From Siphonodentalium dalli (lineage: Eukaryota; Mollusca; Scaphopoda; Gadilida; Siphonodentaliidae): a stretch of 64,000 nt of DNA. A program made the position numbers and the translations under genes. Under the pieces are notes generated by a model, which worked only from the letters and a program-made list of their open reading frames with translations, did not search any database and was not told the origin of the DNA. The DNA lies in NCBI GenBank assembly GCA_032622095.1, contig CP136064.1, positions 171,252,310 to 171,316,309 on the forward strand, in the 5' to 3' direction. Of the stretch, positions 1 through 50,817 are shown piece after piece. Each line of letters begins with the position of its first letter. The stretch's first letter is position 1.

Positions 1-685
1 AATATTTTGAGCGATAACGTTGCGTTGGATTGTAAAGAAACGCTTCTTAGATCAATTCCCCCTTCCTAGGAACGACAGACAACGCATTCTTTGTTTTTTT
101 TTTTTTTAAACCTGCCCGTACCCGTCCTAATGTCATGAAATCTCTCTGCATAATATTTCGAGCGATAACATTGCATTGCATTGAAAACACGCTTCCCGTC
201 GTGAAATCTCTCTGCGATAACATTGCATTGAATTGAAAACAAACGGTTCCCGTCGTCTCTGCATAATATTTCGAGTCTGCCGTACCCGTCCTAATGTTGT
301 GAAATCTCTCTGCATAATATTTCTAGAGAAAACATTGCATTGAATTGAAAACAAACGCTTTCCGTCGTGAAATCTCTCTGCATAATATTTCGAGCGACTC
401 CCGTCATACAGATAAGTAGATAGCGAAAACGACGCTCTTTATATAGACACTGCGGAAAACGAACGCTCTTTATATATCAACGCTATTAACCCCGAAGTGC
501 TGATTGCGGTGATTTTGATGATTGGGAAGGGAGAAACGGTGCTCTGAGCTTCTCCAAAACACGACTACGGCGGTGTCCGTGGGATTTCACACTTATATAC
601 GAAATTTGAGCTCGATGGGTGCAGTCGTTTTCGATTCTATAAAGTACACACACATATATATACGGAAGTCTCAAAATATATAGTA
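1..685 (-). mobile_element. Helitron-like element, 5' part, with internal repeats
   Basis: Read on the minus strand, the right edge (about 670-685) is an AT-rich 5' terminus of the CTATATATTTTGAGA type that directly abuts the CTAG end of the next element at 686. Bases 100-400 hold several copies of a unit containing GAAATCTCTCTGCATAATAT and GATAACATTGCATTG. Bases 480-680 hold a module of about 200 bp, with GAGCTTCTCCAAAAC and a TA-rich tail, that recurs at about 6270-6480 and 8240-8460. The 3' end would lie outside the window. The short open frames here are repeat artefacts. Confidence 0.55.
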
Positions 686-1346
686 CTAGCAGGTTAGCCC
701 GCCACTGGCGGCTTGTCCGAAACATGACATTTTTATATATATTTTTTTAATTTTTAGCTCCACGCGTTTCAATAAGAAAAATTTGTACCCGGTAGCTCTA
801 CCAGTTTCCGAGATCTGGTCTGCGCATGAAAATTTGTACCCGGCGCAAGATACATTCACATGCCAAATTTCAAGTCGATAGCTCCACCCGTTTCCGAGAT
901 CTCGTCTGCGCATGCGCTGCACGTGCGTCGCACGGGCTCGGCGACCCGATAAAATTTGTACCCGGCGCAAGATACATTCACATAGCAAATTTCAAGTCGA
1001 TAGCTCCACCCGTTTCCGAGATCTCGTCTGCGCATGCGCTGCACGGGCGTCGCACGGGCTCGGCGACCCGATAAAATTTGTACCCGGCGCAAGATACATT
1101 CACATAGCAAATTTCAAGTCGATAGCTCCACCCGTTTCCGAGATCTCGTCTGCGCATGCGCTGCACAGGCGTCACACGGGCTCCCAATACGACAACGACC
1201 ACCGCCTGGTCAAACTACACACACGTACCAAGTTTCGTCCCGATCGGTCGAGAATCGTAGATTTGTATGAAGTACAACACACACGCAAACATAAATATAT
1301 AAGAGAGATATGTAAATTAGATAGATTGTATCAAAATATATAGGAG
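686..1346 (-). mobile_element. Helitron-like element with internal 122-bp tandem repeat
   Basis: On the minus strand the 3' end is CTAG (686-689), preceded about 9 nt away by a perfect GC hairpin, CCGCCA-C-TGGCGG in plus-strand reading (699-711). This is the known Helitron 3' arrangement. The probable 5' terminus is the CAAAATATATAGGAGA region near 1346. The interior holds three to four tandem units of 122 bp (about 826-1190) with GATAGCTCCACCCGTTTCCG and GCGCATGCGCTGCAC. No Rep/helicase ORF is present, so the element is non-autonomous. The exact 5' boundary is uncertain by a few bases. Confidence 0.65.
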
Positions 1347-1494
1347 AGATATGTAAATGATCTACACACCATTACTGGTGTTTGTCAAAGTTTAGTGGGG
1401 TATATCAATACTCATTCACGATCATATCATTGAGGTCCGGAGGGTGTGGGCTATCTCTCGAATACAAGGAGTTCTCAAAATATATAGAAGAAGA
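1347..1494 (-). mobile_element. Helitron-like 5' terminal fragment
   Basis: This short piece ends at its right edge in CTCAAAATATATAGAAGAAGA, the same AT-rich 5' terminus (TC.. on the minus strand), immediately before CTAG at 1495. Its 3' part is missing, so it looks like a truncated element in the head-to-tail chain. Confidence 0.5.
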
Positions 1495-1606
1495 CTAGCA
1501 GGTTAGCCCGCCACTGGTGGCAATAGTCAGAAACATGACAATTTTTAATTTAATTTTTTGTTTTTCAATGAGTTAATTTTTTTGTTTTTCAATGAGATAA
1601 TTGTGC
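1495..1606 (-). mobile_element. Helitron-like 3' terminal fragment
   Basis: It begins with CTAG (1495-1498), then the same hairpin-bearing terminus as at 686 (CCGCCACTGGTGG, one stem mismatch). Homology stops within about 60 bases at low-complexity T/A sequence, after which the satellite array begins. The 5' portion is absent or replaced. Confidence 0.5.
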
Positions 1607-4078
1607 CTTTTTAGCTCAACTTACTTGTAAGTTTGAGCTATTGCCATGGTTTGGCGTCCGTCGTCCGTGTGTCCGTGTGTCCGTGTGTCCGTGTGTCCGT
1701 CAACAATTTCCTTTGGCGCGGGCTACAGGTTGTACCTTTGGTCTGATCTTCATGAAATTTGTCATGAATGTTGACATTGACATGTAGATGGGAACGAGTC
1801 ATTTTTGGGTCATTCGGCCAAAAAACATGGCCGCTGGCAGCCATCTTGGATTTCAAGATTCAATCCATTGGCGCGGCCTACAGGTCGTACTGTTCATCTG
1901 ATCATCATGAAATTTGTCATTGATGTTAATAATGACATGTAGATGGGAACGAGTGATTTTGGGGTCGTTCGGCCAAAAAACATGGCTGCCAGCAGCCATC
2001 TTGGATTTTACTCTTTGCATGACTAAATCCTTTGGCACGGGCTACAGGTCGTTGTTTTGGTCGGAAGTTTATGAAATTTGTCATGGATGTTAACACTGTC
2101 ATGTAGATGGGAACGAGTGATTTTGAAGTTGTTCGGCCAAAAAACATGGCCGCCAGCAGCCATCTTGGATTTTACTCTTTGCATGACTAAATCCTTTGGC
2201 GCGGGCTACAGGTTGTACCTTTGGTCTAATCTTTATGAAATTTGTCATGAATGTTGACATTGACATGTAGATGGGAACGAATCAATGTGGGGTCATTCGG
2301 CCAAAAAACATGGCCGCTGGCGGCCATCTTAGATTTCAAAATTCAATCCATTGGCGCGGGCTACAGGTCGTACTGTTCATCTGATCATCATGAAATTTGT
2401 CATGGATGTTAATATTGACATGTAGATGGGAACGAGTCATTTTGGGGTTGTTCGGCCAATAAACATGGCCACCAGCAGCCATCTTGGATTTTACTCTTTG
2501 CATGACTAAATCCTTTGGCGCGGGCTACAGGTCGTAGCTTCGATCGGAACATCATGAAATTGGTCATGGATGTTAACAATGACATGTAGATGGGAACGAG
2601 TGATTTTGGGGTCGTTCGGCCGAAAAACATGGCCGCCAGCAGCCATCTTGGATTTTACTCTTTGCATGACTAAATCCTTTGGCGTGGGCTACAGGTCGTA
2701 CCTTTGGTCTGATCTTTATGAAATTTGTCATGAATGTTGACATTGACATGTAGATGGGAACGAGTCATTTTGGGGTCATTCGGCCTAAAAACATAGCCGC
2801 TGGCAGCCATCTTGGATTTCAAGATTCAATCCATTGGCGCGGGCTACAGATCGTACTGTTCGTCTGATCATCATGAAATTTGTCATTGATGTTAATAATG
2901 ACATGTAGATGGGAACGAGTGATTTTGGTGTTGTTCGGCCAAAAAACATGGCCGCCAGCAGCCATCTTGTATTTTACTCTTTGCATGACTAAATCCTTTG
3001 GCGCGGGCTACAGGTCGTTGTGTTGGTCGGAAGTTTATGAAATTTGTCATGGATGTTAACACTGACATGTAGATGGGAACGAGTGATTTTGGAGTCGTTT
3101 GGCCAAAAAACATGGCCGCCAGCAGCCATCTTGGATTTTACTCTTTGCATGACTAAATCCTTTGGCGCGGGCTATATGTTGCCTTTGGTCTAATCTTTAT
3201 AAAATTTGTCATGAACGTTGACATTGACATGTAGATGGGAACGAATCATTGTCGGGTCATTCGGCCAAAAAACATGGCTGCTGGCGGCCATCTTGGATTT
3301 CAAAATTCAATCCATTGGTGCGGGCTACAGGTCGTACTGTTCGTCTGATCATCATGAAATTTGTCATGAATGATAACAATGACATGTAGATGGGATCGAG
3401 TCGTTTTGGGGTCATTTGGTCAAAAAACATGGCCGCCAGCAGCCATCTTGGATTTTACTCTTTGCATGACTAAATCCTTTGGTGCGGGCTACAGGTCGTA
3501 GCTTTGGTCAGATGGTCATGAAATTTGTCATGAATTATAACAATGACATGTAGATGGGAACGAGTCGTTTTGGGGTCATTCGGTCAAAAAACATTGCCAC
3601 CAGCATTTTACTTTTTGCATGACTAAATCCTTTGGCGTGGGCTACAGGTCATACCTTTGGTCTGATCTTTATTAAATTTGTCATGAATGTTGACATTGAC
3701 ATGTAGATGGGAACGAATCATTGTGGGGTCATTCGGCCAAAAAACATGGCTGCCAGCGGCCATCTTGGATTTCAAAATTCAATCCATTGGCGCGGTCTAC
3801 AGGTCGTACTGTTCGTCTGATCATCATGAAATTTGTATGTTGTAGCTTTGGTCAGATCTTCATAAAATTTGTCATGGATGTTAACAATTATACGTAGATG
3901 GGAACGAGTTCTTTTGGGGTCAATTGGCCAAAAAAAATGGCCACCAGCAGCCATCTTGTATTTTACTCTTTGCATCACTAAATCCTTTGGCGCATGTTAG
4001 ACATTTCAATTAGCACCTTTCCTATTCCTCCATTTACTGTCAACCATTAAATTATTCCCCTACCTAAGTTGAGCTACA
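1607..4078 (+). repeat. 161-bp satellite array with hairpin head
   Basis: The array opens with a stem-loop, TAGCTCAACTTAC..GTAAGTTTGAGCTA, followed by a CCGTGTGT/CCGT microsatellite. About 14 monomers of roughly 161 bp follow. Each carries GGCGCGGGCTACAGGTCGTA, ATGAAATTTGTCATG, GACATGTAGATGGGAACGAG and CAGCCATCTTGGATTT. Related positions recur every 483 bp (1926, 2409, 2892), which shows a three-monomer higher-order unit. Because 483 is a multiple of three, 73-codon minus-strand frames repeat; they have no protein features. A complementary GTTGAGCTA lies near 4070. A headless relative is at 54350-55300. Confidence 0.85.
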
Positions 4079-4109
4079 GTGTCATTGACACTTTCATTAA
4101 TTTTTTAAT

Positions 4110-4520
4110 TAATTGTGCCTTTTTATGTTTACCCATACCATGTATGGTAAACATAGTGTCGTTGTCCGGATTGACCACTCGTCGTCCGTCCGTCCGTCTG
4201 TCCGTCCGTAGACACTTCACGTGTAATGCGATAACTCAAACATTTTCTATCCAATCAGAAGCAAATTTTGTATATGGGTATATCAACCCAAAATACAGAT
4301 CGAGTTCGAATTTGGGTTTGATCCGAGTTTTTGTTACAGAGTTATGGCCCTTTTTCTACTTAAAATTCACACATTCTGCCATAACTCAAACATTTTTTAT
4401 CTGATTGGAACCAAATTTGGTATGTGAGTTTCACAGCCCAAAATACAGATCTAGTTCGAATATGGGTTTGATCCGATTTATTTTAAAGGAGTTATGACCC
4501 TTTTTCGAAAAATAAATTGA
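4110..4520 (+). repeat. Hairpin-headed tandem repeat (CATACCATGTATGG family)
   Basis: It starts with the palindrome TATGTTTACC..GGTAAACATA (about 4123-4152), then GTCCGTCC repeats. Two to three monomers of about 165 bp follow, with ACCAAATTTGGTATGTGAG, AGTTCGAATATGGGTTTGAT and GAGTTATGGCCCTTTTTC. The same family recurs at 13391-14830, 15090-16246, 18445-19170 and 36830-37620. No coding potential is seen. Confidence 0.8.
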
Positions 4521-4639
4521 AGAAAAAAATCGATTTAAATTTTTTATTTTTTTTAACTTTTATAATAATAATAAAAAAAATGTCATTGACATTGTCATTT
4601 GTTTTCATTTAGATATTGATGATTATGATACAAGTTGAT

Positions 4640-5470
4640 AAAAAGATTTCCAATGTGTCCCTTTAATTTTTTTAAATAATTAAAAACAATTATAACCATT
4701 ATAACTCTGCCAAGGGTACCCCGAATCACCACACCAAATTTGATTAAATCGGTCCAAAATCTTGTGTTATGTACTGGTAAATCTGTTTGGAGCAACATTA
4801 AATCCAATTCACCAATTGCATTTGGACTACTTACTAGTAGCTATTGATAAACTTTCAGATAAAGCTATATTATTTTCTGATTTTTCTTATGCCAATGTGC
4901 AAATAATCTGATAAAGAAGCCTGTGGTATCTAATTTAAAATAAAGATTCAACAATAAACATCACATGATATTAACAGTAGACTTGGACATCTGTGTGCTG
5001 CAGAGTTATATCTTCAGATGGTCTGATATCATTATAATTGTTATTGGTTTAATAGAGGTCAGTGTTCAACATAAACAATTCCTGTGATTTTTTGACAGCT
5101 GTGCTATATAATTGATATTAATGGGTCAGTGGTGAGGTTGCTTATCTGTATACTAGGACACATTATTATTGTAAACTTAAATTGGACTCTCTTAACCCAA
5201 GTATTCCATGTCCAGGGCACACCTACACATTTAACCCACGGACTTGCTGGCTGTGGCGGTTTAGCATTACAGATCCTGTACCAGTGCATTCTCTTATATA
5301 AATGCCAGTGACCCATAAATTCCAATAATTTGTGTTATGTACATTTGTCTATAATAGTACATAACAGTATACTCTATAATTCAACACCAAAACTCTCATT
5401 TATCCGATCATATTAAATTTTTATCGCCAAGGGTTGGGTTAACATCTGCCGATCGTGATCGGCCTCTCGT
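4640..5470 (+). repeat. Interspersed repeat ending in a GCCGATCGTGATCGGC hairpin
   Basis: This is a dispersed repeat of about 830 bp. It begins near AACCATTATAACTCTGCC and ends with the hairpin GCCGATCGTGATCGGC (about 5446-5462) followed by CTCTCGTTA. A second copy starts near 19800, ends near 23295 and is split by insertions; a third tail lies at 19560-19795. It also contains GTGCATTCTCTTATATAAATG, a motif shared with the piggyBac-like MITEs. Its class is unknown to me; a Helentron-like or rolling-circle origin is possible because of the terminal hairpin, but no CTRR end is visible. Confidence 0.6.
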
Positions 5471-6421
5471 TAATTTTGTTTTTCAATTTTACCCGATTTA
5501 TTTTGTTTTTCAATGAACCCGTCCATGACACTTCCCGTATTTAGCAAGTTTGAGCTCAATCGGTTCGAGTCTATAAAGGACACACACATATATATGACAC
5601 TTCCCGTAGGTAGCAAGTTTGAGCTCAATCGGCATTCCCTGGAATTTCCCAGTCAATATTTAGTAAGTTTGAGCTCAATCGGTTCGAGTCTATAAAGGAC
5701 ACACTCATATATGACACTTCCCGTAGGTAGCAAGTTTGAGCTCAATCGGCATTCCCTGGAATTTCCCAGTCACCAACGCGGCGTAATTTTGGTACATATA
5801 TAGAGACCAATTGTCCATCGGCTGTCATGTGTAGTAAAGATGTCATATAAGCCGACATTGCCGTGGGGATGCCCGTTCCTACACGCGTTTAGATTGGCAG
5901 ATTCCAGTAGCTTTATAACGGTATATCTGGGGATAAATCTGATGCTATATTCGTGATTATCTGGGATGATTTCGGGATGCCCGTTCCTACACGCGTTTAG
6001 ATTGGCAGATTCCAGTAGCTTTATAATGGTATATCTGGGGAGAAATCTGATGCTATATTCGTGATTATCTGGGATGATTTCGGTATATAACTATATACTG
6101 TAAAAACAAAGCGCGCCATCCGTGCTCGCAGGGTTGGTCAGAAACAAATGTTTTAAATTTAATGTATGTTCCGTATATCTCTCTGCAGATGCAAATAACG
6201 TTGAATGGCAAACAGACGCTCTTTATAGCGATGCGTAAAAAACAAACGCTCATTAAATAATCACTTTATTAACCCCCGCCGTGCCTTTGCGGTGATTTTG
6301 AGAGTGGAGAACGCGTGCTCTGAGCTTCTCCAAAACGCCGCGACGACGATTCCCGTGGGATTTTACATTTAGATGGGAAGTTTGAACTCGATCGAGCGAA
6401 CCGTTTTCGATTCTATGAAGT

Positions 6422-6465
<44 letters not shown>

Positions 6466-6486
6466 GAAGTCTCAAAATATATAGTA
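5471..6486 (-). mobile_element. Helitron-like element, 5' part, with internal repeats
   Basis: The right edge (TCTCAAAATATATAGT at about 6471-6486) is the family's 5' terminus and abuts CTAG at 6487. Inside are tandem units with TAGCAAGTTTGAGCTCAATC (5540-5760), a duplicated block of about 110 bp (5868-5975 and 5972-6080), the GAGCTTCTCCAAAAC module and a (TA)n run at 6423-6465. No clear 3' hairpin end was found on the left, so the left limit is arbitrary. Confidence 0.45.
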
Positions 6487-7219
6487 CTAGAAGGTGACCC
6501 GACTTCGTCCGGGCTTCGACCTTGAATTGTCTATTTTGAAGGCCAAGGTCAAGTGGGGTCACGATTTGACCCGTCCAAAACACAGTGCCCGAACAAAAGT
6601 ACCCGACAAAAGTACCCGTCGAAATCCATCCCGATTTGATTTCCACTGAAGTATATAAACGCGCCTCAAGTTTCAACGTAAAGATAAATTACCATCGGTG
6701 CCCGAGATATCGCCAAGACGTCTGAAACAGTCAAATGCATCGGCCGGGTAAGAGTTAACGTGATCTAACTGTATGACCTCTAACGACGTCATAGAAGTTA
6801 CGCATTGTTTTTACCCTGATAGAAGATCGTACCACTTCTTCTTAATAATTGAGGCAGATAACTAAAACGGATACATACATATTATATATCGTTGGAAAGA
6901 GGAAACACGAAAGATTCTCATAGTGTCATTATTATGACTGGCATGTTATTATTCGCGCTGTTTTGAATCGATTTGTAAGCACCGAACTGAAATATATTAG
7001 CGCAAAACGGCGTAAAAACAGATTTGACCTCGGCACGTGAAAAGTTGACCTCGCACGGACAAATTAATAGGCCTATGTTAGTCCTGACCCGAAAATACCC
7101 CCACATACCAAGTTTCATCGAAATTGGCTCAGCTGTATTTGAGTCCATCGATTACTGACAGACAGACAGATAGATACACACACACACACACACACAGATC
7201 TTTCAAAATATATAATAGA
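6487..7219 (-). mobile_element. Helitron-like element A of a four-element array
   Basis: Minus-strand orientation. The 3' end is CTAG (6487-6490) followed outward by T, with the hairpin CCCGACTTCGTCCGGG just inside (plus reading, about 6498-6513). The 5' end is TC at 7219-7218, leading into TATTATATATTTTGAAAG. It ends exactly where the next CTAG begins. The interior has ACCAAGTTTCATCGAAATTG and GACAGACAGA runs. No Rep or helicase frame is seen. A close relative is at 20509-21267. Confidence 0.75.
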
Positions 7220-7745
7220 CTAGCCGATGAGCCCGACGTTGTCCGGGCTATTCAAAAACCAAATATCAAGTCGATAGCTCTACCCGTTTCCGAGATCTGG
7301 TCTGCGCATGCGCGAAGCTGGCGTCGCACGGGCTCGGCGACCCGATAAAATTCGTATCCGGGGCAAGATACATTCACATAGCAAATTTCAAGTCAATAGC
7401 TCTACCCATTTCCGAGATCTGGTATGAGCATGCGCGAAGCTGGCGTCGCACGGGCTCGGCGACCCGATAAAATTCGTATCCGGGGCAAGATACATTCACA
7501 TACCAAATTTCAAGTCGATAGCTCCACCCGTTTCCGATATCTCGTCTGCGCATGCGCGAAGCGGGCGCCGCACGGGCTCGCCAATACGACAACGTTCACC
7601 GCCCGGTCAAACTACACACACGTACCAAGTTTCGTCCCGATCGGTCGAGAATCGTAGATTTGTATAAATGACAGACAGACAAACAAACAAACAAACAAAC
7701 ATACATACAGACAGAGGTCTTCAAAATATATATGAGATAGATAGA
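7220..7745 (-). mobile_element. Helitron-like element B of the array
   Basis: The 3' end is CTAG (7220-7223) with a strong hairpin AGCCCGACGTTGTCCGGGCT just inside (plus reading, about 7230-7249). The 5' end is TC at 7745-7744, abutting CTAG at 7746. The interior has about three units of the 122-bp repeat (with GCGCATGCGCGAAGC) and ends in ACAGACAGAC/AACA runs before TTCAAAATATATATGAGA. Confidence 0.75.
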
Positions 7746-8459
7746 CTAGCAGGTTAGCCCGCCACTGGCGTGGTTCGTCTCATGGCTTTGTTCGAAAAAG
7801 CAATTGCAACAGCTTCCGAGACACGTATGCTGCACCTAGGTGTAAAATTTTGTCGAAATCCGCCAGTTTACCCGATTTGACCTTGAATTGATCATTTTCA
7901 AGGTCAAGGTCAGGTCGGGGTCACAATTTAACCCGTCCATGACATTTCCCGCACAAAAGTACCCCTAGGTAGCAAGTTTGAGCTCAATCGGTTCGAGTCG
8001 ATAAAGGACACACACATATATATCATTTGTGGGTACCCGTTTCAAGGTGAAGATCACCTCGGGCGGAAAAACTGACCCAATGAAAATCTCCCCCGTTCCT
8101 AGGAAGCCCTAAGTACATAAGAATCACACAACACTCTCATGTCTGGATACATTCGCTCACGCCCGGACACAGACGTAAGAATCACATTACACGCATACGC
8201 TCTTTATCAACGACACTGCGGATACGAACGCTCTTTAACTATCAACACGATTAACCCCACAGTGCTGTTTTTGTGACTGAGAGTGGAGAATGGGTGCTCG
8301 GAGCTTCTCCAAAATGCCGCGACGACCATTCCCATGGGTTTTTACCCTTAGATGGGAAGTTTGGTCTCAATCGGTGCAGCCGTTTTCGATTCTATAAAGT
8401 ATATATATAGACACATATATATTTATATATATACGTAGTTCTCAAAATATATATATAGA
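7746..8459 (-). mobile_element. Helitron-like element C of the array
   Basis: The 3' end is CTAG (7746-7749) plus the hairpin region GCCCGCCACTGGCG. The 5' end is TC at 8459-8458 after CTCAAAATATATATATA. The interior has TTGACCTTGAATTG, TAGCAAGTTTGAGCTCAATC and the GAGCTTCTCCAAAAT module also seen at about 540 and 6320. It is non-autonomous. Confidence 0.7.
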
Positions 8460-9114
8460 CTAGCCGAGGAGCCCGACGTTGTCCGGGCTATTCAAAAACC
8501 AAATTTCAAGTCGATAGCTCCACCCGTTTCCGAGATCTGGTCTGTAAACCAAATTTCAAGTCGATAGCTCCACCCGTTTTCCGAGATCTGGTCTGCGCAT
8601 GCACGAAGCTGGCGTCGCACGGGCTCGGCGACCCGATAAAATTCGTATCCGGGGCAAGATACATTCACATACCAAATTTCAAGTCGATAGCTCCACCCGT
8701 TTCCGAGATCTCGTCTGCGCATGCGCGAAGCTGGCGTCGCACGGGCTCGGCGACCCGATAAAATTCGTATCCGGGGCAAGATACATTCACATAGCAAATT
8801 TCAAGTCGATAGCTCCACCCGTTTCCGAGATCTCGTCTGCGCATGCGCGAAGCTGGCGTCGCACGGGCTCGGCGACCTGATAAAATTCATATTCGGGGCA
8901 AGATACATTCACATAGCAAATTTCAAGTCGATAGCTCCACCCGTTTCCGAGATCTCGTCTGCGCACGGGCTCGCCAATACGACAACGACCACCGCCTGGT
9001 CAAACTACACACACGTACAAATTTTCGTCCCGATCGGTCGAGAATCGTAGATTTGTATTAATGACAGACAAACAGACAGACAGACAGACAGAGGTCTTCA
9101 AAATATATATGAGA
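8460..9114 (-). mobile_element. Helitron-like element D, upstream end of the array
   Basis: The 3' end is CTAG (8460-8463) with the hairpin AGCCCGACGTTGTCCGGGCT. The 5' end is TC at 9114-9113, preceded on the minus strand by A, giving the A/TC junction expected for Helitron insertion between A and T. The interior has about four tandem 122-bp units (8540-8960) and a GACAGACA run. Open frames of 72-109 codons here are repeat translations. Confidence 0.75.
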
Positions 9115-9780
9115 TTATGTTTAACTGTAAATGTATGTTCCTATGGATCTGTAATTAGTTATCATTATATCCAAAATGGACGACATGCATGGGACTGCAT
9201 CTATATTTCTTTTTTCAAATTTCATACTGTAAAACGTTCACGATTATTGATATTTTATTGACAAAGTCACAAAGTTTGCGGAATGTTCAAAGTTACTAGA
9301 CAGTTAATCAGTAACAAGTTTGTGTCATCACTTATTAGTGCTACATACATTACATTCTCCAAATTGGTAACGTATATACCCCCACCCGCAACCGCGCTGC
9401 ACGATGCGCTGCACGCAGAATAAAATTAAGTGCTATGATATGTCAGGTGACGCAATCGGTACACAATGGGATTTTCTGCAAAACTAACTATAGTCCGTTT
9501 TCAATAAGTATGCGACAATTCCGCGATGCATGTTCACAGGGAACATTGATTGACTGAACAAATATTTTTTTAATTTCTCGTCCGCGGGAATAGCGATGAG
9601 GAGGGTGTTTACCTGCCGCATAAATTTGAGTTTAGGTGGCCGATGACGGGCGGGGGCATCAGAATGACAAGCCTGCTGACTGACAGTTTATAACTGTGTT
9701 CAGACTGGATATATTGTAGTCATTGTAATTTCGATATGATCACGTCTTTACCTGGGTGCAATATAGGCCACATATATAAA
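9115..9780. other. Unannotated spacer, no feature recognised
   Basis: AT-rich sequence without a domain-bearing frame, clear repeat or RNA gene. Bases 9590-9650 are locally more GC-rich (GGTGGCCGATGACGGGCGGG), but nothing is identifiable. Confidence 0.5.
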
Positions 9781-9996
9781 CGATTAATCGACTAACCGTC
9801 GACTATAACGGTCGATTATGAAAACTCATAGTCGTGGCAACCCTAGCGATAGACATGACAAACAATAACTATCATCATTATTATTATTAGGCACCTAAGC
9901 TTAATATCGATAGACATAAAAAACAATAACTATCATCATTATTATTATTAGGCACCTAAGAGTAATATCGATAGACATCGCAAACGATAACTCTAT
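9781..9996. repeat. hAT-type terminal remnant and 61-bp tandem duplication
   Basis: CGATTAATCGACTAACCG..GGCAACCCTAG (9781-9845) resembles the GATTAATCG/CAACCCTA ends of the hAT-like element at 21987-22703, so it is probably a remnant. Next, a unit beginning GATAGACAT starts at 9848, 9909 and 9970, a 61-bp period with internal TATCATCATTATTATTATTA. Confidence 0.55.
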
Positions 9997-10265
9997 CAGG
10001 GACCAGCCTAGAGTGCGATTTGGGAGATATCTTCTCTTAAAATTTTGTCACTTCGTCCTATTTTTGTCCTGGGGATAAGTGACTTCTCTCTCATATATAC
10101 CAGATTACACATGTCCCTAAAGCCTATTTAATCTGTATTTTCTGATTATAATGGTGTTTTACTCATTATAATAATTTTATAAATGGGCTTTTTGCAAAAC
10201 TTTGGACAGAACTCATTGTTAATGGTAAGATTGAATGTGGAGCTTGGCTTAAATGCCTTTTCCGA
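9997..10265 (+). mobile_element. Truncated hAT-like MITE (CAGGGACCAGCCTAGA family)
   Basis: The left terminus CAGGGACCAGCCTAGA and the interior (GGAGATATCTTCTC, AAGTGACTTCTCTCTCATAT) match the complete 280-bp copy at 39401-39680. The right inverted terminus is missing here. Confidence 0.65.
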
Positions 10266-10283
10266 CATTCCGTGTTACCTTTT

Positions 10284-10690
10284 TAGCTCACCTGAGATGA
10301 AAGCTCCAAAGGAGCTATAGTCATCACTCCTCGTCCGTTGTCTAGCCGTCCGTACATCGTACCCATCTGTCCGTCCATCAAGAATCGTCTTCTTCTCCAG
10401 AACCATAAGACCGAATGGGTTCATATTTGGTGTGGATGTTCCCTACTAGTAGGTGACTCACATTCAGATTTGTTCAAATGAGTTAATGAGGTCACCAGGT
10501 CAATTAGTTGCGAAATCAGGGCCTCCATAGTAATTCTCAGTGAGAACGACTTCTCAAGAACCATTGGGCCGATTTAGCTTATATTTGGTATGGAGGGGCC
10601 TTGGGTGACTGGGGTTCATATTTGTTCAAATGGGATCACTGGTTCAAATATGGGCAGAGCCAGGGACATAACTCTTAAAAAAAAATGAAA
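10284..10690 (+). repeat. Hairpin-headed repeat (AGCTCACCTGAGA family)
   Basis: The head stem-loop TAGCTCACCTGAGATGAAAG..GGAGCTA (10284-10319) is followed by GTCATCACTCCTCGTCCG, a CCGTCC region, and then about two monomers with TTCATATTTGGTGTGGATGT, CAGATTTGTTCAAATG and AGGGACATAACTC. Better copies are at 46582-47430 and 63347-64000. Confidence 0.75.
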
Positions 10691-11429
10691 AAAAAAATTG
10701 AAATAAATATTTTTTTATTTTAACTTTTGATTTTGTTTTTAAAGATTTAAATTTTTTTTTTTATTTGACATTTCAATGTGTAGATAGTACGACAAACTGG
10801 GTTTAACTGCCTTACTCTGCACAGCTGTTCGTCCCATCATTATAAAGCAATTAGTTGTCTCAATAGCCACATTTCTCCCAGCAGATAGTGGGTTGTATGA
10901 ATGAAATTTAATTCAATGTGTTGACTGCTATCAAAAATCAAATGTATCTGTTTGACAGTTTACAATTTATTATTAGTATTAGTATTAATACTTTTATGAC
11001 AGGAGCTGTGCTGGTGCAGCAATAAAGACCCTGTGCCAGTGCATTCTCTTATATATGCGAATGCACTGGCTTTCAAGGTCAAGGAGATATTCTTAGGCCA
11101 ATGTAGTCATTGATCAAGAGAAGGGAGCTCCTAGTTTTAATATTTACCCAATATTTATTATTTTATTACAAGATATCATGCGGTGGGTCCTGGCTTCTGA
11201 TGAGGAAAAAATTGCACTGAAAAAAAAAATTGTTTTATAAGTTTCATTAACTTATATCAAACCGCAGCCTGCTTTAGTGGGCACGATGTAATTTACGTTC
11301 ACCACCGCATCCCGCTTTAGCGGGCAGAGCTTAATTTTCTGGAATGACACGGAATAATACAATATTTACAGGGAAAAACAAATGAATTTATTTGTTAGCG
11401 ACTTTAATAAAAATGCTTTAAATTTTCAG
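10691..11429. other. Upstream flank of BTB exon; decayed MITE
   Basis: Bases 10995-11090 hold GACAGGAGCTGTGCTGGTGCAG, GCCAGTGCATTCTCTTATAT and GGCTTTCAAGGTC, which match the piggyBac-like MITE seen whole at 27440-27630. The final bases before 11430 (AATGCTTTAAATTTTCAG) are the splice acceptor of the BTB exon. I could not identify an exon for the first half of the BTB domain between 9115 and 11429. Confidence 0.5.
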
Positions 11430-12202
11430 GCTCACAAATTAGTGCTATTTGCAGCAAGTCCAAAGCTGCAAGCAGATTCATCAGACACTCCGTCATCATC
11501 GACATTGAATGTTTGCCTCCCAAGTGGAGTGAGCCATAAGGCTGTTCATTCCTTTCTCAGATATCTCTATGAAGGATACCTCAGAATCACAAGTGATATT
11601 GCAAACGACTTGCTGGATATTGCAAACTTTCTACAGATCCAAAGTTTAATAAAGTATTCGGAAGGATTTCTGAACTCCAATGATGATGGGTCAAACAATG
11701 GTCTCTTCAACAAGATTAAAAGTGACATTTCTTACGTTCGAATGGTTGAATGTGGTGAAAGTGAGTTAAGTGACATATCTTTTCAACGAGATGGGAATCG
11801 TGACTTACGTACGAAGCGGCCTAGGGAGCAGGATAAATTTTCCAATTCAGCAAAAAAAACAAAAGGTCCAGAATCAACAAGACTGCAGGCTAATGCCTCT
11901 TCTGACGTAAACTCACATCATGACCTTCCTTGTACACTCAAGACAAATGTATTAAACAGTGATGGCTTACCGATAAACTCAAGATCTAGTGCTAGTTCAA
12001 TATCAGCCAGCGTTCTGAAAAGTTCACAATCTTCAGCATATTCCATTTCCACATCTATCACTTCTGGTCAGTCGAACAATGTTGAGACAAGAGCAAGCAT
12101 TGCTGGTCACTGCATTCCAGGTGCTACAGATGTTCAAGCCGTGGGTACACCAGAAACTGCTATCAGTTCTGTTCAAACTACTAGTCAGCCTGAACATCTT
12201 GG
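11430..12202 (+). CDS. BTB-C2H2 zinc-finger protein, exon with second half of BTB
   Basis: This internal exon is the first visible part of a BTB/POZ zinc-finger transcription-factor gene. The acceptor is TTTTCAG ending at 11429 (phase 0) and the donor is GTGAGT at 12203, leaving two bases of a Gly codon. An ATG at 11382 opens the same frame but lies in the intron and would split the BTB fold. Residues 1-82 (starting AHKLVLFAASPKL, later SFLRYLYEGYL and DIANFLQI) match the second half of BTB, the dimerisation domain that recruits corepressors in this family; the D-V-x-L half must lie on an upstream exon. Residues 128-146 form a bipartite nuclear-localisation-like patch (TKRPRE..KKTKG). The rest is a Ser/Thr-rich, probably disordered linker. 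The protein is probably a nuclear DNA-binding regulator; targets are unknown. Confidence 0.85.
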
Positions 12203-12262
12203 GTGAGTTATTGGTAGAGAACATAGTCATGTAGGTGTAAATATATCAGCAAATTGTATTAA

Positions 12263-19939: not shown

Positions 19940-21956
19940 CTCTTTAACCCTCAATGACGTGATTTGACATGTCTAACGGGTACCTGTAACGTTACCTGAG
20001 ACAGCCCTCACCGGTAACGTCAAGGTAGACAACAGGGCGTAATTAGCAGCGAATTTGTTGCGCTCGCTTTATGTTGATAATTTATTGAACACTGGCGAAA
20101 TAGGTAACATTTCAATGCAAATTGTATCCGTTATTCCACAACTTAAATAATTACCAGCTAAATTTTCACTCTGAGAATCACGCCTATACAACGGAACTTA
20201 TCGGTCTATATCATACAGGAATGAAGAAAATGTATAATTTTTATTTATGCCAAACTTAATTGGAAAAGTTGAGAAAGTCAGCAGAAAAATTTGGGGGGAA
20301 ATCCTTGTGATGCAAGGAATACACATCCCATCTCCGATTATAATTTAAACTTCTGTGGAGAAAACTGGAAAAATCTAGCTTTAATATCGAGTAAATCATA
20401 ACATTTAACGACGTGATCGTTGGTTGCGTCATTTTCAGTTTGTCGATTTTGCATAACACGTTGTTTATTTATCTGGTGCGATGGTATTACTCGTCTCTTA
20501 TATATAAACTAGAAGGTGACCCGACTTCGTCCGGGGTTTGACCTTGAATTGTCTATTTTGAAGGCCAAGGTCAAGTGGGGTCACGATTTGACCCGTCCAA
20601 AACACTGCCCGAACAAAAGTACCTGACAAAAGTACCCGTCGAAATCCATCCGATTTTACCCGATTTGACCTTTTAACCCGATTTGATTTCCACTCAAGTA
20701 TATAAACGCGCCTCATATACACACGCTCATTAATTATCAAGTTTCAACGTAAAGATAAATTACCATCGGTGCCCGAGATATCGCCAAGACGTCTGAAACA
20801 GTCAAATGCATCGGCCGGTTAAGCGTTAACGTGATCTAACGTTATGACCTCTAACGACGTCATAGAAGTTACGCATTGTTTTTATCCTGATGGAAGATAG
20901 TACCACTTCTTCTTGATAATTGAGGCAGATAACTAAAACGGATACATACGCATTATATATCGTTGGAAAGAGGAAAAACGAACGATTCTCATAGTGTCAT
21001 TATTATGACTGGCATTTTATTATTCGCGCTGTTTCGAATCGATTTGTAAGCACCGAACTCAAATGAAAGTCCCGTAACACAGCGTAAAAACAGATTTGAC
21101 CTCGGCACGTGAAAAGTTGACCTCGGATCTGAAAATCAATATGTCTATGCCACCCCCCGGCCGAAAATACCCCCACATACCAAGTTTCATCGAAATCGGG
21201 TCGGCCGTTTTCGAGTTCATCGCGAACACACACACAGACATACAGATCTTCCAAAATATATAATAGATAATCCCTACGATTCCCAATATCAATAAAAAAT
21301 AAAAATAAATTCAACTTCCTTATTTGGGTGAGGCTCTTGAGTGACTCGATTCTGAGATCTCTGGATTGGTCTGGCTCTTCCATCAATTATACAGGCTCTT
21401 CCAATAACCTGCCTATTGAGCCACTCTTCTGGTTTGCAACATAACACACACACGTGGTTTTAATTTCTCAAAGTTGAATTAAGAACCACAAAGTTGGTTC
21501 AAACGATATAAATTATAATTATTCAGATAGTGGCAACAAGAAATAGATCTTTGGTTTTTTCTGGCGGATTTGGAAACGTTAGAAGACAATTTCAGTACCC
21601 GTACCAGTATGTTGTAATAATTTTATTTTATTTTATTTTATTTTATTATGTCGTTGAAAATGGAATAATTATTTGCACCCCAGCCGGAACTGAAATAGAT
21701 TATTCCATATTAAACTGCACTTAGTGATATAAACTTGCCGCTACTTGACCAGAAATCGACAAGGTGTTGATCTGCAACAGTTATGTCACAGTATTCATAT
21801 TTAATAAAGCATAAAAAAACTGAATATACACCGTTTATATAAACGGAAAACTTGCCATGTAAACCAACACGTCAAATCACGTAATTGAGGAATAGGTAGC
21901 CACGTCAAATCATGTCATTGAGGGTTACGCTAGAAAACTATTTGAGTGTTAAAGAG
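19940..21956. mobile_element. piggyBac-like TTAA-flanked element, 2017 bp
   Basis: TTAA at 19936-19939 and 21957-21960 flanks inverted ends CTCTTTAACCC and GTGTTAAAGAG. Subterminal inverted motifs CAATGACGTGATTTGACATG and CACGTCAAATCATGTCATTG lie inside. The empty site is preserved in the related repeat at about 4790 (GACATTAAATCCAATTC-like). The interior includes a 759-bp Helitron. No piggyBac transposase was recognised; the short frames at 20256 (minus) and 21530 (plus) show no domain. Confidence 0.75.
20509..21267 (-). mobile_element. Single Helitron-like element, 759 bp
   Basis: Minus-strand orientation: 5' A/TC at 21268/21267-21266, leading into TATTATATATTTTGGAAG, and 3' CTAG/T at 20512-20509/20508 with the hairpin CCCGACTTCGTCCGGG inside. 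Both junctions fit insertion between A and T with no duplication. It is closely related to array element A (6487-7219), sharing ACCAAGTTTCATCGAAATCG and CGATATATAATG-type interior. It is inserted into the piggyBac-like element. Confidence 0.8.
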
Positions 21957-38006: not shown

Positions 38007-38681
38007 TGTAATTGGTTTTAAGAGAAGTAGAAAAATAGTATTCTTAGAATAAATTTGCTGCATAGCCGAGCAGTGGTACTCTTCCACGACAGTTTTCCTT
38101 GTTTCTAAACTACATTTATGGTCCATTTATGTCGTATGCATGCTGGGCACAACTCGACATTAAAAAATTTCGACAGCAAATTGATTGCATTAAAAATTGT
38201 ACAAAACTGCAGATAAACATCAGCAGCTTCTGAAATTTGCCTGCTGAAATATTGGCGACAAAATATATATTTATGTCGCATTTTGCCTCAGTGTTCAGCT
38301 CACTGATTAACTGGGCTGTCTAGATGTGGAACTCTCAGTCTGGTTTCTTTATCAAAGATTAGATATGTATGTGCTAGATCGTATGGTTAATATTTCCAAT
38401 ATGTCCGACATGTTTAAGTGTGGAAACAAAACTATCAAACCATTTTTTCATGCAGAACTGAAAATGACTCTTAAGACTTTAAAGCACCCAAGCGATTATA
38501 CATACTAGTATCACCACAGATCAGTGATTTTAGTTGTGGACTAATATGCATGTAATATGCCTTTGCCAAATAAAACTAAATTTCCAACAATATTAGCATA
38601 TATATATATGTTAGCATGAATTCACACTTATCTTGGTAAAGATATTCTATTTATGAGAACATGTTATTGTTATATTTCCAG
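38007..38681. other. End of intron 2, no feature recognised
   Basis: AT-rich intron sequence with a small TATATATATATG run near 38600. The last bases, TATTGTTATATTTCCAG (ending 38681), form the acceptor for the zinc-finger exon. Confidence 0.5.
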
Positions 38682-39299
38682 ATGAGTGAGTCATTGGTTG
38701 TAGCAGCTGAAATAGACATACATGTAGATAGTGCATCAACATTCGGTTGTAGTGATTGCCAATTTGTCACGAGACACAAATCAAGTTTGATGCGACACAA
38801 ACAATCTCATAAAGAACAAAAAACAAAATCTGATGCAGCGAAGATATTTATATGCTCACAATGTGGAAAACCTTTCATTACCTGGACTGGACTAAGGCTG
38901 CATGACGAGTCAATCCACCAAAAGAAGTTTAAATACAACTGTGATGAATGTCATAAAAGCTACAACCAGATTTCAAATTTTCGAGCGCACATGGCAAACC
39001 ATGAGCACAGTCTAAAGAGGGAATGTGAGCATTGTGAGAAGTCCTTCAACAGCAAGTCAGCACTTGTTCTTCATGTTAAATCAGAACACGAGGGAGTGAA
39101 ATATCCATGCGATACTTGTTCGAACAGTTACAAACGGAAAAGTGATCTTCTGTGTCATCAAAAGGTATCTCACGAAGGGAAGCAATACTCTTGTGAAAAA
39201 TGTGGCAAATCTTTTAAATGGCGATCGTCGAAAAAATATCACAGTCGTACTTGTGGACAGCCATCATGGAATCTAGGGCCATCATGGAACATGCAGTAA
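38682..39299 (+). CDS. BTB-C2H2 zinc-finger protein, terminal zinc-finger exon
   Basis: This is the last coding exon (205 residues, stop TAA at 39297-39299), joined in phase 0 after acceptor TATATTTCCAG. Six zinc fingers are visible, numbered from M1 at 38682: 23-43, 58-79, 87-107, 115-136, 143-164 and 171-191. The first five are C-x2-C-x12-H-x3/4-H. The sixth has Cys191 in place of the last His (C-x2-C-x12-H-x3-C), a C2HC variant that can still bind zinc. Linkers between fingers 4-5 and 5-6 are HEGVKYP and HEGKQYS, degenerate TGEKP types. The fingers should bind DNA in the nucleus while the upstream BTB half dimerises. An ATG at 38682 could serve an alternative start giving a finger-only protein, but the acceptor just upstream supports splicing. 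The C-terminus after finger 6 is only 14 residues. Confidence 0.9.
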   Translation: MSESLVVAAEIDIHVDSASTFGCSDCQFVTRHKSSLMRHKQSHKEQKTKSDAAKIFICSQCGKPFITWTGLRLHDESIHQKKFKYNCDECHKSYNQISNFRAHMANHEHSLKRECEHCEKSFNSKSALVLHVKSEHEGVKYPCDTCSNSYKRKSDLLCHQKVSHEGKQYSCEKCGKSFKWRSSKKYHSRTCGQPSWNLGPSWNMQ

Positions 39300-39352: not shown

Positions 39353-39400
39353 TATAGTACTGTGTGTTTTTCACCATTTTTATCTCAATTCAATTCATGT

Positions 39401-39680
39401 CAGGGACCAGCCTAGAAGGTGACTTGGGAGACATCTTCTCCCTAAAATGTGCCACTTCTCCCTATTTTTGTCCCAGGGAGAAGTGACTTCTCTCTCATAT
39501 AGCAGTATGCATATATCCAACCAGCATATTTAAAAGCATATTTATTGATTATAATTTAGTGTACTCACTACAATGGTTTAAAAAAAGGGCTCTTACAGCA
39601 TAATACTTATTTTATCATAAAACAGGGACAAACAGGGAGAAGTGACTTCTCCCAATTTCAAACATCTAGGCTGGTCCCTG
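39401..39680. mobile_element. hAT-like MITE, 280 bp, complete
   Basis: The inverted termini are CAGGGACCAGCCTAGA and TCTAGGCTGGTCCCTG. An exact 8-bp duplication, ATTCATGT, lies at 39393-39400 and 39681-39688. CAG-start ends and an 8-bp duplication are standard hAT features. The interior has AGAAGTGACTTCTC foldbacks. A truncated relative is at 9997-10265. Confidence 0.9.
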
Positions 39681-39891
39681 ATTCATGTACTCACAGCTGT
39701 TATGTGTTTCTAGACATTGAAGATTTGCTATTTACTTGTAGAATACACTGTACAAAGTAATTGTCTCCAAAATTATGAATGGACTAATTTTATTATATAT
39801 AACCTTTCAAACTCGGATGTTTTTTTTTTGTGGGGTATCATACACATATATACCTATTATCAGTTCGGGGAAATCTTATTTATTGGCTTAA

Positions 39892-42189: not shown

Positions 42190-42606
42190 TGTGTCTGTCA
42201 TTTGCAGAATGACGTTCCCAGAGGGTGAATTTAGCGATGCTTTCCCGACCGGCAAGCATCACCAAATTCATCATCTGGGGACCTCCTTCTGCTTAGGCCT
42301 CGTCTTCTGGGAAGTATCTATAGTCTCAAATTAACATTGTTTTTAAGTTACTTTTTCTGGGATGTTTCTATATCCCCTAATTTGCAGAAGATAAAATGCA
42401 TAATTGAGTTGACTAATGGGTGAACATCACCAACTTCAACTGGGGAACTTCAATCTGATCCTAGGTCTTCCATAGTTGTTGAGGCTTAAGCAGAATGAGG
42501 TTCACAGAGGGTGAATTTGGTGATGCTAGCCCACTGTGCTGGATAGCATCACTAAATTAAACCTCTAGGGACCTCATTCTGCAAATGACAGACACACTAT
42601 TTGCAG
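42190..42606. mobile_element. Compound MITE copy B, adjoining the recombinase exon
   Basis: The inverted termini are GCAAATAGTGTGTCTGTCAT at the left (about 42182) and ATGACAGACACACTATTTGC at the right (ends near 42605). The family's GAGGGTGAATTTAGCGATGC and ACCTCATTCTGC modules lie inside. Imperfect direct repeats GGACAGATAGATACCT (about 42167-42182) and GGGCAGATAGATGCCT (about 42611-42626) flank it. The right terminus supplies the TTTGCAG that precedes the coding frame. Confidence 0.7.
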
Positions 42607-43610
42607 GCTTGGGCAGATAGATGCCTCCAGCAAGAAGAGGAACAAGAGACGGACAACTCGTTTTGTGATTCATATGACGAAAGTGGATCTCCTGTGCAGC
42701 AAGACATCGTGGTGAACAGGCGATTTAATAAACAAGGTTGCAATCTTTCCATTGGAATGGTTGATGAAGTTAATACATTGCATAGTTCTTCTGAAAAAAG
42801 TTTTAATACTGATCGAAAAACAAATTATGATTTAAAACTACTGAGAATGTTTCTCAATTCAAAAGGTGAAACGCGAAACCCTGAGTTGATTCCGCCGGAT
42901 AAACTCGAAGATTTTATATCCGAATTCATTCTTACTGTTCGAAAGAAGGATGGATCGGAATATGAACCGACTAGCTTAGGAGCATTTATTTCTTCATTCG
43001 ATCGATATCTGAAGAAAATGTTTTATTCTGTGCAGTTCAAGACTGATAAGAAATTCAATAAGGCTCAGCAAACTCTGCGAATAAGACAGAGATACTTGAG
43101 GAGGAAATATTCCGACAGAGTGACGAAATGTTCAGTCAGCTCAATAACAGAAGCAGAAATTAATCTATTTATTGAGAAAAATATTCTTGGACCATTCAAT
43201 CCAAGATCTCTAATCAATTCCATGTGGGTGGTTTGTGCTTTGAACTTTGGAATTAGGGTAGTATCCGACCTCCTGAACCTAAAGTGGGGTAACATTGAAC
43301 TAAAAGCTGATGACGATGGGCATGAGTACATTACGTGCACTCATGGAATGGACAAAAGGAGTCTTTATGATCAAAGGGCTTATGCTACAGGGAATTTGAA
43401 TCACGACCCTGTCATTCTTTATAAGCTGTATGAGGAACAGAGGCCCATATGTATGTGTACCTACAACAGTCCATTCTTTTTGTCAGTGAACCGTAACTGG
43501 AAAACTGGAGATTCTTGGTACCATGAGAGAGAAAGTGGGAAAAACAAATTCAATAAAATGTTCACCAAATTGTTGCAGAGTGTAGGATTATCACCAGAAA
43601 ACAGACTTAC
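42607..43610 (+). CDS. Tyrosine-recombinase-like (Crypton/ZMYM DUF3504-like) domain exon
   Basis: An open frame of 334 codons plus two bases. I infer an acceptor at TTTGCAG (42606) or at TCCAG (42630), and a donor GTAACT at 43611 that splits a Thr codon. Unspliced, a TAA stop follows at once. Residues 1-70 are acidic and low in structure. Residues 72-170 (TNYDLKLLRMFL, YEPTSLGAFISSFDRYL) fit the N-terminal SAM-like core. Residues 180-335 fit the catalytic fold, with FGIR at about 214-217 (R217 as first catalytic Arg) and LKWGNIEL. The run SPFFLSVNRNW..GKNKFNKMFTKLL..VGL..ENRLT resembles the stretch just before NHSARKT in ZMYM2, QRICH1 and Crypton proteins. The later His-x-x-Arg, His and Tyr would be on a further exon, which I could not find. 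It could be a domesticated host gene or a 5'-truncated Crypton. The frame is intact. Confidence 0.7.
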
Positions 43611-44520
43611 GTAACTGTGAGATAATGCAGTGTGAAAAACAAATTCAATTTTATTTCAAGGAAGTGTTCAAGGAATGTAGGTCTATCGCCAGAAATAGTG
43701 TTTTTTTAACCCTTTTTTTCTGAATGGGTTCTCCAATTCAGTTATATAAGTATACATTGGAATGGTCTATCATTCATTTGGAGGGATGTTCAGGAAATAT
43801 TATTAACATATTATATAAAATATTAGTAATTTAGAGGGATGTCCAGGAAATATTAGTAAATATTAGTAATTGACAGGTAATACAAGCACAGAAGAAGGAT
43901 TCTTATCCATTGGTGGGAATATTCAGATAATAAGTTCAACAAACTGCCATTTATTAATTTTATATCTCACTGGTGATATTGCAATTCAATCTTTTATTCG
44001 AAGTTACAAACCTCTATCAATATTCAAGGGAAAATGAACTTGCAGCATTAACCCTTTCTATACTGAATGGATTCTCCCATTCAGTTATAAGAGTATACAT
44101 TGGAAATTGGAATGGTCTATTATTCATTTGGAGGGATTTTCAGGTAAAAAACATGGAAGACAGACAGAAATATAGATAATACAAGAGTTGAATGATTCAT
44201 ATTCATTGGTGGGAAATGTTCAGATAATAAGTTCAACAAACAAACGACCTATGAAATTTTTAACTGAACATTTCCTAAGGGATATATTAACTACTCCTAA
44301 ATGAGTGTTTAGTATATAAATGGTTAAACCTTTATATTCACCTAATATTGCTTCTAATTTTCCCATATCGTTTCTATAGACACACCCCTGATTCAATGTG
44401 TTCAACAAACGGAACTTTATATTATCTGAACATTTCCAATGGGAACTACTCATCAATGAGTATTTAATAAAGAAAGAGTTACCTTCTGAATATATGTAAT
44501 TGTTCTGTTTATTAATTTAA
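43611..44520. repeat. Diverged repeats downstream of the recombinase exon
   Basis: A unit with GAATGG.TTCTCC.ATTCAGTTATA, AGTATACATTGGAA and GGAATGGTCTAT.ATTCATTTGGAGGGA occurs at 43725-43810 and 44060-44145. GGGAA.ATTCAGATAATAAGTTCAACAAA occurs at 43917 and 44211, and inverted at about 44395-44445, making a foldback. Class unknown. No exon continuing the recombinase domain was found here. Confidence 0.5.
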
Positions 44521-45825: not shown

Positions 45826-46575
45826 TTTCTTGTGGACAATGTTCCCTGGTTTCTTGTGTGCGCCCGGGTTTCTTGAAGACATGATCCTAGTTTCTTGAAG
45901 ACATGATCCTGGTTTCTTGAAGACATGATCCAGGTTTCTTGAAGACATGATCCTGGTTTCTTGAAGACATGATCCTGGAACCTGTAGACATCCTGGTTTA
46001 TTGAAGACATGATCCTGGTTTCTTGTGTGCGCCTGGGTTTCTTGAAGACATGATCCTGGTTTCTTGTGTGAGCCCGGGTTTCCTGAAGACATGATCCTGG
46101 TTTCTTGAAGACATGATCCTGGTTTATTGTGTATGCCCGGGTTTCTTGAAGACATGATCCTGGTTTCTTGAAGATATGATCCTGGTTTCTTGAAGACATG
46201 ATCCTGGAACCTGTGGACATGATCCTGGTTTCTTGAAGACATGATCCTGGTTTCTTGAAGAATTGATCCTGGTTTCTTGAAGACATGATCCTGGAACCTG
46301 TAGACATGATCCTGGTTTTTTGAAGACATGATCCTGGTTTCTTGAAGACATGATCCTGGTTTCTTGAAGACATGATCCCGGAACCTGTAGACATGATCCT
46401 GGTTTCTTGAAGACATGATCCTGGTTTCTTGTGTGCGCCCGGGTTTCTTGAAGACATGATCCTGGTTTCTTGAAGATATGATCCTGGTTTCTTGAAGACA
46501 TGATCCTGGTTTCTTGAAGATATGATCCTGGTTTCTTGAAGATATGATGCTGGTTTCTTGAAGATATGATCCTGG
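45826..46575 (-). repeat. 22-bp minisatellite array A
   Basis: The main unit is TTGAAGACATGATCCTGGTTTC (22 bp), repeated over 30 times with two regular variants: a CCTGGAACCTGTAGACATGA type and a TTCTTGTGTGCGCCCGGGTTTC type. Since 22 is not a multiple of 3, every minus-strand frame is open and cycles through the same 22-residue repeat, which explains three overlapping frames of about 200 codons. No start context, splice site or domain supports a protein. Confidence 0.9.
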
Positions 46576-46581
46576 TTTTTA

Positions 46582-49856: not shown

Positions 49857-50817
49857 TGTTTGAAGACATGATCCGGGTTTCTTGAAGACATATCCTGGAA
49901 CCTGTAGACATGATCCTGGTTTCTTGAAGACATGATCCTGGTTTCTTGAAGATATGATCCTGGTTTTTTGAAGACATGATCCGGGTTTCTTGAAGACATA
50001 TCCTGGAACCTGTAGACATGATCCTGGTTTCTTGAAGACATGATCCGTGTTTCTTGAGGACATGATCAAGAGAAATCTTGAGTTGTATGTTAACACATGC
50101 AATTCAGATAACATGGGGGGTAATATTTTCCTAAGTATGTCCCACAAACATTGTGGTAAGCTGTTATCAATTACACACGAGTCTCAAGGTTGTAGGTTCT
50201 TCACATGTTATGGCGACACTATCGAAATTTGGGAAAACAACAACATAAACAGCCAGCTGGCTTCTTGTGTGCGCCCGGGTTTCTTGAAGACATGATCCTG
50301 GTTTCTTGTGTGAGCCCGGGTTTCCTGAAGACATGATCCTGGTTTCTTGAAGACATGATCCTGGTTTATTGTGTGTGCCCGGGTTTCTTGAAGACATGAT
50401 CCTGGTTTCTTGAAGACATGATCCAGGAACATGTAGACATGATCCTGGTTTCTTGAAGACATGATCCTGGTTTCTTGAAGACATGATATCGGAACCTGTA
50501 GACATGATCCTGGTTTCTTGAAGACATGATCTGGTTTCTTGTGTGCGCCTGGGTTTCTTGAAGACATGATCCTGGTTTTCTTGAAGACATGATCCTGGTT
50601 TCTTGAAGACATGATCCTGGTTTCTTGAAGACATGATCCTGGTTTCTTGTGTGTGCCCGGGTTTCTTGAAGACATGATCCTGGTTTCTTGAAGACATTAT
50701 CCTGGAACCTGTAGACATGATCCGGGTTTTGGGTTTCTTGAAGACATGATCCTGGTTTCTTGAAGACATGATCCTGGTTTCTTGAAGATATGATCCTGGT
50801 TTTTTGAAGACATTCAC
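49857..50817 (-). repeat. 22-bp minisatellite array B, interrupted
   Basis: It has the same 22-bp unit and variants as array A. Bases 50065-50258 are unrelated sequence that splits the array. The variant order from about 50262 to 50440 (TTGTGTGCGCCCGGG, TTGTGTGAGCCCGGGTTTCC, then TTTATTGTGTGTGCCC) parallels 46022-46205 in array A, pointing to a shared origin by duplication. The minus-strand frames of up to 216 codons are repeat artefacts. Confidence 0.9.

Follow-up and report, generated by a model that had tools for sequence, protein, structure and literature searches.

The left end of the window (the whole 64-kb stretch of Siphonodentalium dalli DNA analysed here) carries seven Helitron-like units, arranged head to tail in a single orientation over at least 9.1 kb (Table 1). 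We read the region 1–10500 and scanned both strands for the 5′-end motif ATATTTTGA and for CTAG with a preceding hairpin; the elements are read throughout on the minus strand, 5′ to 3′, and a slash within a sequence marks a boundary. Six junctions between a 3′ CTAG and the 5′ end of the next unit, all on the minus strand, lie at 8459/8460, 7745/7746, 7219/7220, 6486/6487, 1494/1495, and 685/686. The first three, which read CTCGGCTAG/TCTATATATATATTTTGAG, CCTGCTAG/TCTATCTATCTCATATATATTTTG, and ATCGGCTAG/TCTATTATATATTTTG, respectively, are exact in the sequence, as the first-pass annotation had claimed. It had also proposed that the pattern extends to 6486/6487 and 685/686; both proved to be real junctions, the two of the six with TA instead of TC on the 5′ side, and to these we add 1494/1495, which had not been listed. 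Six junctions give seven units, so the earlier count of four was too low. Of the two outer edges that had been drawn, the A/TC at 9114 (A/TCTCATATAT) stands, and 6487 is a further junction rather than an edge. Ordinary flanking DNA is touched only by the 5′ edge of unit E (ACATAA/TCTC); on the other side the array continues past the window's left edge, beyond which lies its far 3′ terminus. The description of the elements as spacerless and joined head to tail likewise stands, with the qualification that 7745/7746, where 8 extra bases (TCTATCTA) precede the 5′ end common to units C and E, is spacerless only if these bases are counted in unit C.

Table 1. Units of the Helitron-like array, the short repeat before unit C, and the solo relative of unit B; positions are those of the window.
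Feature	Positions	Strand	Description
Unit E	8460..9114	-	122-bp-repeat type; 5′ end A/TCTCATATAT, the one place where host DNA is seen next to the array; terminates in CCTCGGCTAG
Unit D	7746..8459	-	D-type body; intact 5′ end TCTATATATATATTTTGAGA; 3′ end AACCTGCTAG
Unit C	7220..7745	-	122-bp-repeat type; 5′ end common to E begins at 7737
TCTATCTA	7738..7745	-	Separates D's CTAG from the 5′ end that C shares with E; putatively left over from the starts of G and A
Unit B	6487..7219	-	Starts TCTATTATATATTTTG, ends CACCTTCTAG; both ends recur at B2
Unit A	1495..6486	-	D-type 5′ part starting TACTATAT; 3′ end AACCTGCTAG; interrupted from ~1572 to ~5501
Unit F	686..1494	-	122-bp-repeat body with a 3′ end of the D/A kind; second 5′-end-like motif
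Unit G	1..685	-	D-type 5′ part starting TACTATAT; runs off the window
B2	20509..21267	-	Solo relative of B; host A before TC, host T after CTAG

A junction pattern (CTAGT, 3–22 nt, then TATATTTTG), defined post hoc with the junctions already seen, gave six matches on the two strands of the 64-kb window, 6/6 of them at array junctions, and none in 300 order-1 Markov sequences, each 9,114 nt long and matched to the array in composition. Likewise, two 3′-end motifs allowed up to 3 mismatches matched at three and two places in the window and in none of 100 shuffles each. The scan for a bare hairpin plus CTAG recovered only three of the six junction 3′ ends together with three unrelated places; hence, this criterion alone is non-discriminating. 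Folding of the 3′ hairpins offers weak support: E and C stand marginally above shuffled sequences (12 and 11 of 200 as good, respectively), and for the other five of the seven ends 61 to 136 of 200 shuffles were as good. CTAG terminates every element whose 3′ end is visible, seven in all (E, D, C, B, A, F, and B2; that of G lies outside the window), and a TC start is seen in E, D, C, B, F, and B2, with the TA start of A and G being read as truncated. A comparison of the first with the last 60 nt for exact inverted matches (7 nt or longer) gave 9 nt in B, 10 nt of AT only in F, and 7 nt in B2, and none in E, D, C, or A. The 3′ ends of units other than B recur within the array only, one kind at three places and another at two. 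In wider searches, the 3′-end pattern of the E, C, and B kinds had no match in viral_contigs, nor did four exact patterns (the 122-bp repeat core, the A/G 5′ end, the D/F 3′ end, and the B interior). Two matches of the 3′-end pattern in genome_contigs fell in bacterial MAGs, where the 251 bases around each match were GC-rich with nothing Helitron-like, and we set these aside as chance.

The solo copy B2, a full-length relative of B, fixes the ends of one unit. Its first bases are TCTATTATATATTTTG, preceded by a host A, and its last are CACCTTCTAG, followed by a host T; clear likeness to the array ceases at those terminal bases at both ends. BLAST places B and B2 at 83% over 786 columns, and in their alignment 651 of 707 aligned bases are identical, with 78 gap columns. 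As the termini of B2 are those of B, the boundaries of B and its A/T target are confirmed; recurrence of the termini at an independent locus, a test named beforehand, thus holds for B, with flanking A and T. The insertion of B2 between A and T is without target duplication, as read from one occupied site. In their TC...CTAG ends and A/T insertion the elements conform to canonical non-autonomous Helitrons. Helentrons and HINEs insert between T and T. Helentron membership was rejected on the target site, B2 lying between A and T. A Pfam scan of 26 of the 52 open reading frames of at least 95 aa in the window detected no Rep/helicase, and two of its batches returned only four matches, all below curated cut-offs; a Rep/helicase transposase encoded elsewhere would have moved these elements.

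The remainder of the window has other features of its own. Open reading frames at 11358–12206, 38640–39299, 42589–43614, and 52068–52919 are associated with Pfam BTB, C2H2 zinc-finger, DUF3504, and sub-cut-off BEN, a set of domains that gives the window an animal-like character. A 22-bp unit, GGTTTCTTGAAGACATGATCCT, forms three arrays (45867–46578, 49860–50067, and 50278–50813) in which long open frames are kept on the minus strand. Inverted ends CAGGGACCAGCCTAG at ~39.4 and ~39.67 kb (39400–39685), with a similar end near 10003 (~10003–10017), may delimit a small terminal-inverted-repeat element.

All-against-all BLAST was used to classify the unit bodies, and it distinguishes a 122-bp-repeat type (E, C, and F; longest matches 87.5–88.9% identical), a D type (D, A, and G; 72.8–76.2% identical), and B as a third type. 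From E to G the types run 122, D, 122, B, D, 122, D, such that 0/6 adjacent pairs have a common body type. Two neighboring pairs are partly alike, B and C along 65 nt of the 5′ end and A and F along 71 nt of the 3′ end; B and D, which are not adjacent, have 91 nt in common internally. The 3′ ends are independent of the bodies, with F joining a 122-type body to a 3′ end of the D/A kind. Unit A is read as one interrupted element because it combines a D-type 5′ part with a 3′ end of the D/F kind; the other repeats that interrupt it include a 164-bp-period array at 1709–3772, and a 15-bp direct repeat, TTTGTTTTTCAATGA, which flanks the interrupting stretch (1557–1571, 1581–1595, and 5502–5516), is a possible target duplication. 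Unit F starts with the repeat-like TCTTCTTCT, and its outer 5′ end, with ~145 nt (1350–1494), lies upstream of the second 5′-end-like motif at 1339 (A/TC at 1350/1349); its BLAST likeness to E and C begins only at F position 204. By analogy with the self-insertion Helitrons of Fusarium, F may be chimeric and possess two 5′ ends.

Units A and G start TACTATATATTTTGAGACTTC, which is D's start TCTATATATATATTTTGAGA minus TCTA; with TCTA prefixed, the starts of A and G align with that of D. Conversely, C is identical to E from 7737 onward (30/30 bases), with E's TCTC directly after flanking DNA, and C carries exactly two extra TCTA (TCTATCTA) between D's CTAG and the 5′ end common to E. We consider it somewhat probable that the TCTA missing from A and G are the very four-base pieces before C, i.e., footprints of insertion. 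As a simple repeat with five occurrences on the two strands of the window, one of them inside F at 1325, TCTATCTA could also have arisen by slippage or inheritance. If the footprints are genuine, solo copies of the A/G type would be expected to read A/TCTATACTATATATTTTGAGAC and not A/TACTATAT, and solo copies of the C/E type A/TCTCATATAT.

Taken together, we propose, with a probability of about 0.72, that the array is a stack of at least seven non-autonomous elements produced by repeated independent insertions at, or four bases inside, the 5′ end of a resident element; that serial insertion in general occurred here is highly probable. The first-pass annotation had offered repeated insertion at the AT-rich 5′ end as its alternative, and with unlike neighbors this becomes the better reading. 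An inserted Helitron, starting with T after a host A, would present at its 5′ edge an A/T target once more, followed by an AT-rich tract; a newcomer at that edge would join the older element as CTAG/TC, spacerless and always on the 5′ side. Entry at TCTA/TACT would instead leave TCTA upstream of the newcomer, with the older element now starting TACT, and two such entries (F into G and B into A) would strand two TCTA. Entries at A/TC (A before F and C before B) would keep these residues on the 5′ side and, with D and E entering at the host A/T, both would end just before C, as observed. Every step would take place at an A/T target: F, A, B, and C would have followed G in that order, and D would likewise have come after G but before E. 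If the first 145 nt of F belong with G, one TCTA residue is left unexplained.

The sites of these putative insertions are AT-rich: the 20 nt after each inferred target contain 16–17 A or T bases, against a mean of 13.0 over 13,184 A/T sites (of which 14.5% reach 16 of 20) and 15 at B2's own target, the six target values being non-independent as all come from element 5′ ends. Six insertions in one orientation would have a chance of 1/64 if orientation were random. Helraiser is reported to favor AT sites in surroundings rich in A and T, most strongly on the flank of the transposon 3′ end; the left end of Helraiser is itself rich in AT (PMC4778049). By analogy, the 5′ edge of an element would have the layout favored by Helraiser in one direction only, which would lead to 5′-ward growth in one orientation. 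We accordingly raise, as a tentative idea that we hold at rather less than even odds, that the 5′ end serves as a renewable landing pad, wherein each insertion would recreate A/TC and the AT tract, growth would remain on the 5′ side in one orientation, and TCTA would record the order of events.

Serial insertion could also have proceeded without leaving footprints, if the TA start of A and G was inherited and the TCTATCTA of C was a product of slippage or likewise inherited. The (TCTA)n character of this sequence, the repeat-like start of F, and the further copy within F are in line with such a history, and A and G may have a common inherited 5′ variant, which would count against footprints. 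Nevertheless, it requires that two units began with a noncanonical TA, along with the coincidence that the surplus TCTA are equal in number to those missing and sited where nesting leaves them, and we regard it as unlikely, though deserving of serious consideration. Composite transposition, in which some neighbors moved jointly as a piece bounded by the 5′ end of one element and the 3′ end of another nested within it, has been described for Helitrons of Fusarium (PMC5148889) and maize (PMC3288121) and would suit the chimeric look of F, with its two 5′-end-like motifs and one 3′ end; however, BLAST found no two-unit block that recurs elsewhere in the window, itself a small sample, and we consider this process improbable at the locus.

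The order of the body types might alternatively point to duplication or rolling-circle amplification of a pair comprising a 122-type and a D-type unit (E-D, C-(B)-A, and F-G). Members of such pairs should have diverged in step, but in addition to the unequal BLAST identities given above, chosen blocks differ by 9–11% among 122-type units vs 23–26% among D-type units, where the former figure is lowered by the choice of blocks via a shared exact anchor and the repeats are possibly homogenised; the whole-body BLAST identities agree in direction, the 122 type being the closer. Moreover, the 3′ ends of E and F match at just 28/60 positions, albeit homogenised repeats could distort the comparison, and amplification of a pair appears very improbable. 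Rolling-circle read-through past the 3′ hairpin, which the first-pass annotation had put forward as a cause, would have inserted a tandem concatemer of one element. It predicts head-to-tail CTAG/TC junctions in a single orientation, and Helraiser circles carry such a junction (PMC4778049); yet adjacent units are never copies of one element, which disfavors a rolling-circle concatemer and led us to reject one made of a single element, and the 5′ ends short by TCTA are left unexplained, such that read-through retains hardly any likelihood. An assembly artefact in this repeat-rich region is the least credible of all, given that the junctions coincide exactly with element termini and that the units are unlike one another.

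Neighboring Helitrons have been reported before in maize, bats, and fungi, and the present array is a long and informative case of this known arrangement. In maize, Du and colleagues described two different Helitrons head to tail, with CTAG directly followed by TC, and considered either a route via an A/T on the 5′ side or insertion at GT, with the order left unsettled (PMC2267711). The scaphopod array resembles that pair in its different elements, its CTAG/TC junctions, and its proposed origin by consecutive insertions, where the A/T formed from the host A and the 5′ T was one of the two routes considered in maize; it differs in comprising seven units, with possible footprints of their order, rather than two whose order is open. 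Maize HelAs are also said to prefer sites near or inside other Helitrons (PMC3288121). According to an argument of Pritham and Feschotte cited by Du and colleagues, elements inserted independently should be separated by an A, the host A, and spacerless head-to-tail Helitrons have been taken to favor rolling-circle transposition on this argument (PMC2267711, PMC5876387). Tandem Helitrons of Myotis lucifugus and plant centromeres (as cited in PMC2267711, PMC5876387, and PMC5148889) have the same spacerless head-to-tail junctions, and such junctions or arrays in plants and bats have been cited for rolling-circle transposition (PMC5876387); those tandems are discussed as rolling-circle products, whereas the present units differ in body. 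For three tandem Helitron copies in Metarhizium acridum, 5′-end insertion and rolling circle were both left open, and FoHelis with two 5′ ends arise by self-insertion (PMC5148889). Unit F is like these two-5′-end FoHelis, and the 5′-end insertion considered in Metarhizium acridum is akin to that proposed here; the ends of Fusarium Helitrons are noncanonical, unlike those of the present units (PMC5148889). Among molluscs, the Cg_HINE Helentrons of the Pacific oyster (PMC7492417) are likewise non-autonomous and, like E and C, combine an internal satellite-like repeat array with a GTCY-like microsatellite of four bases on one flank; HINEs have subterminal inverted repeats, and B2, in contrast to them, inserts at A/T and ends in CTAG. 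A literature search, which covered few subscription journals, recognised no seven-unit mixed Helitron stack with four-base footprints.

The locus thus suggests that independent, canonical A/T insertions can yield the spacerless junctions of read-through, and small marks of the kind seen here could separate serial insertion from read-through in other genomes. If the 5′ end does act as a renewable landing pad, head-to-tail arrays cited elsewhere for read-through could in part be such stacks.
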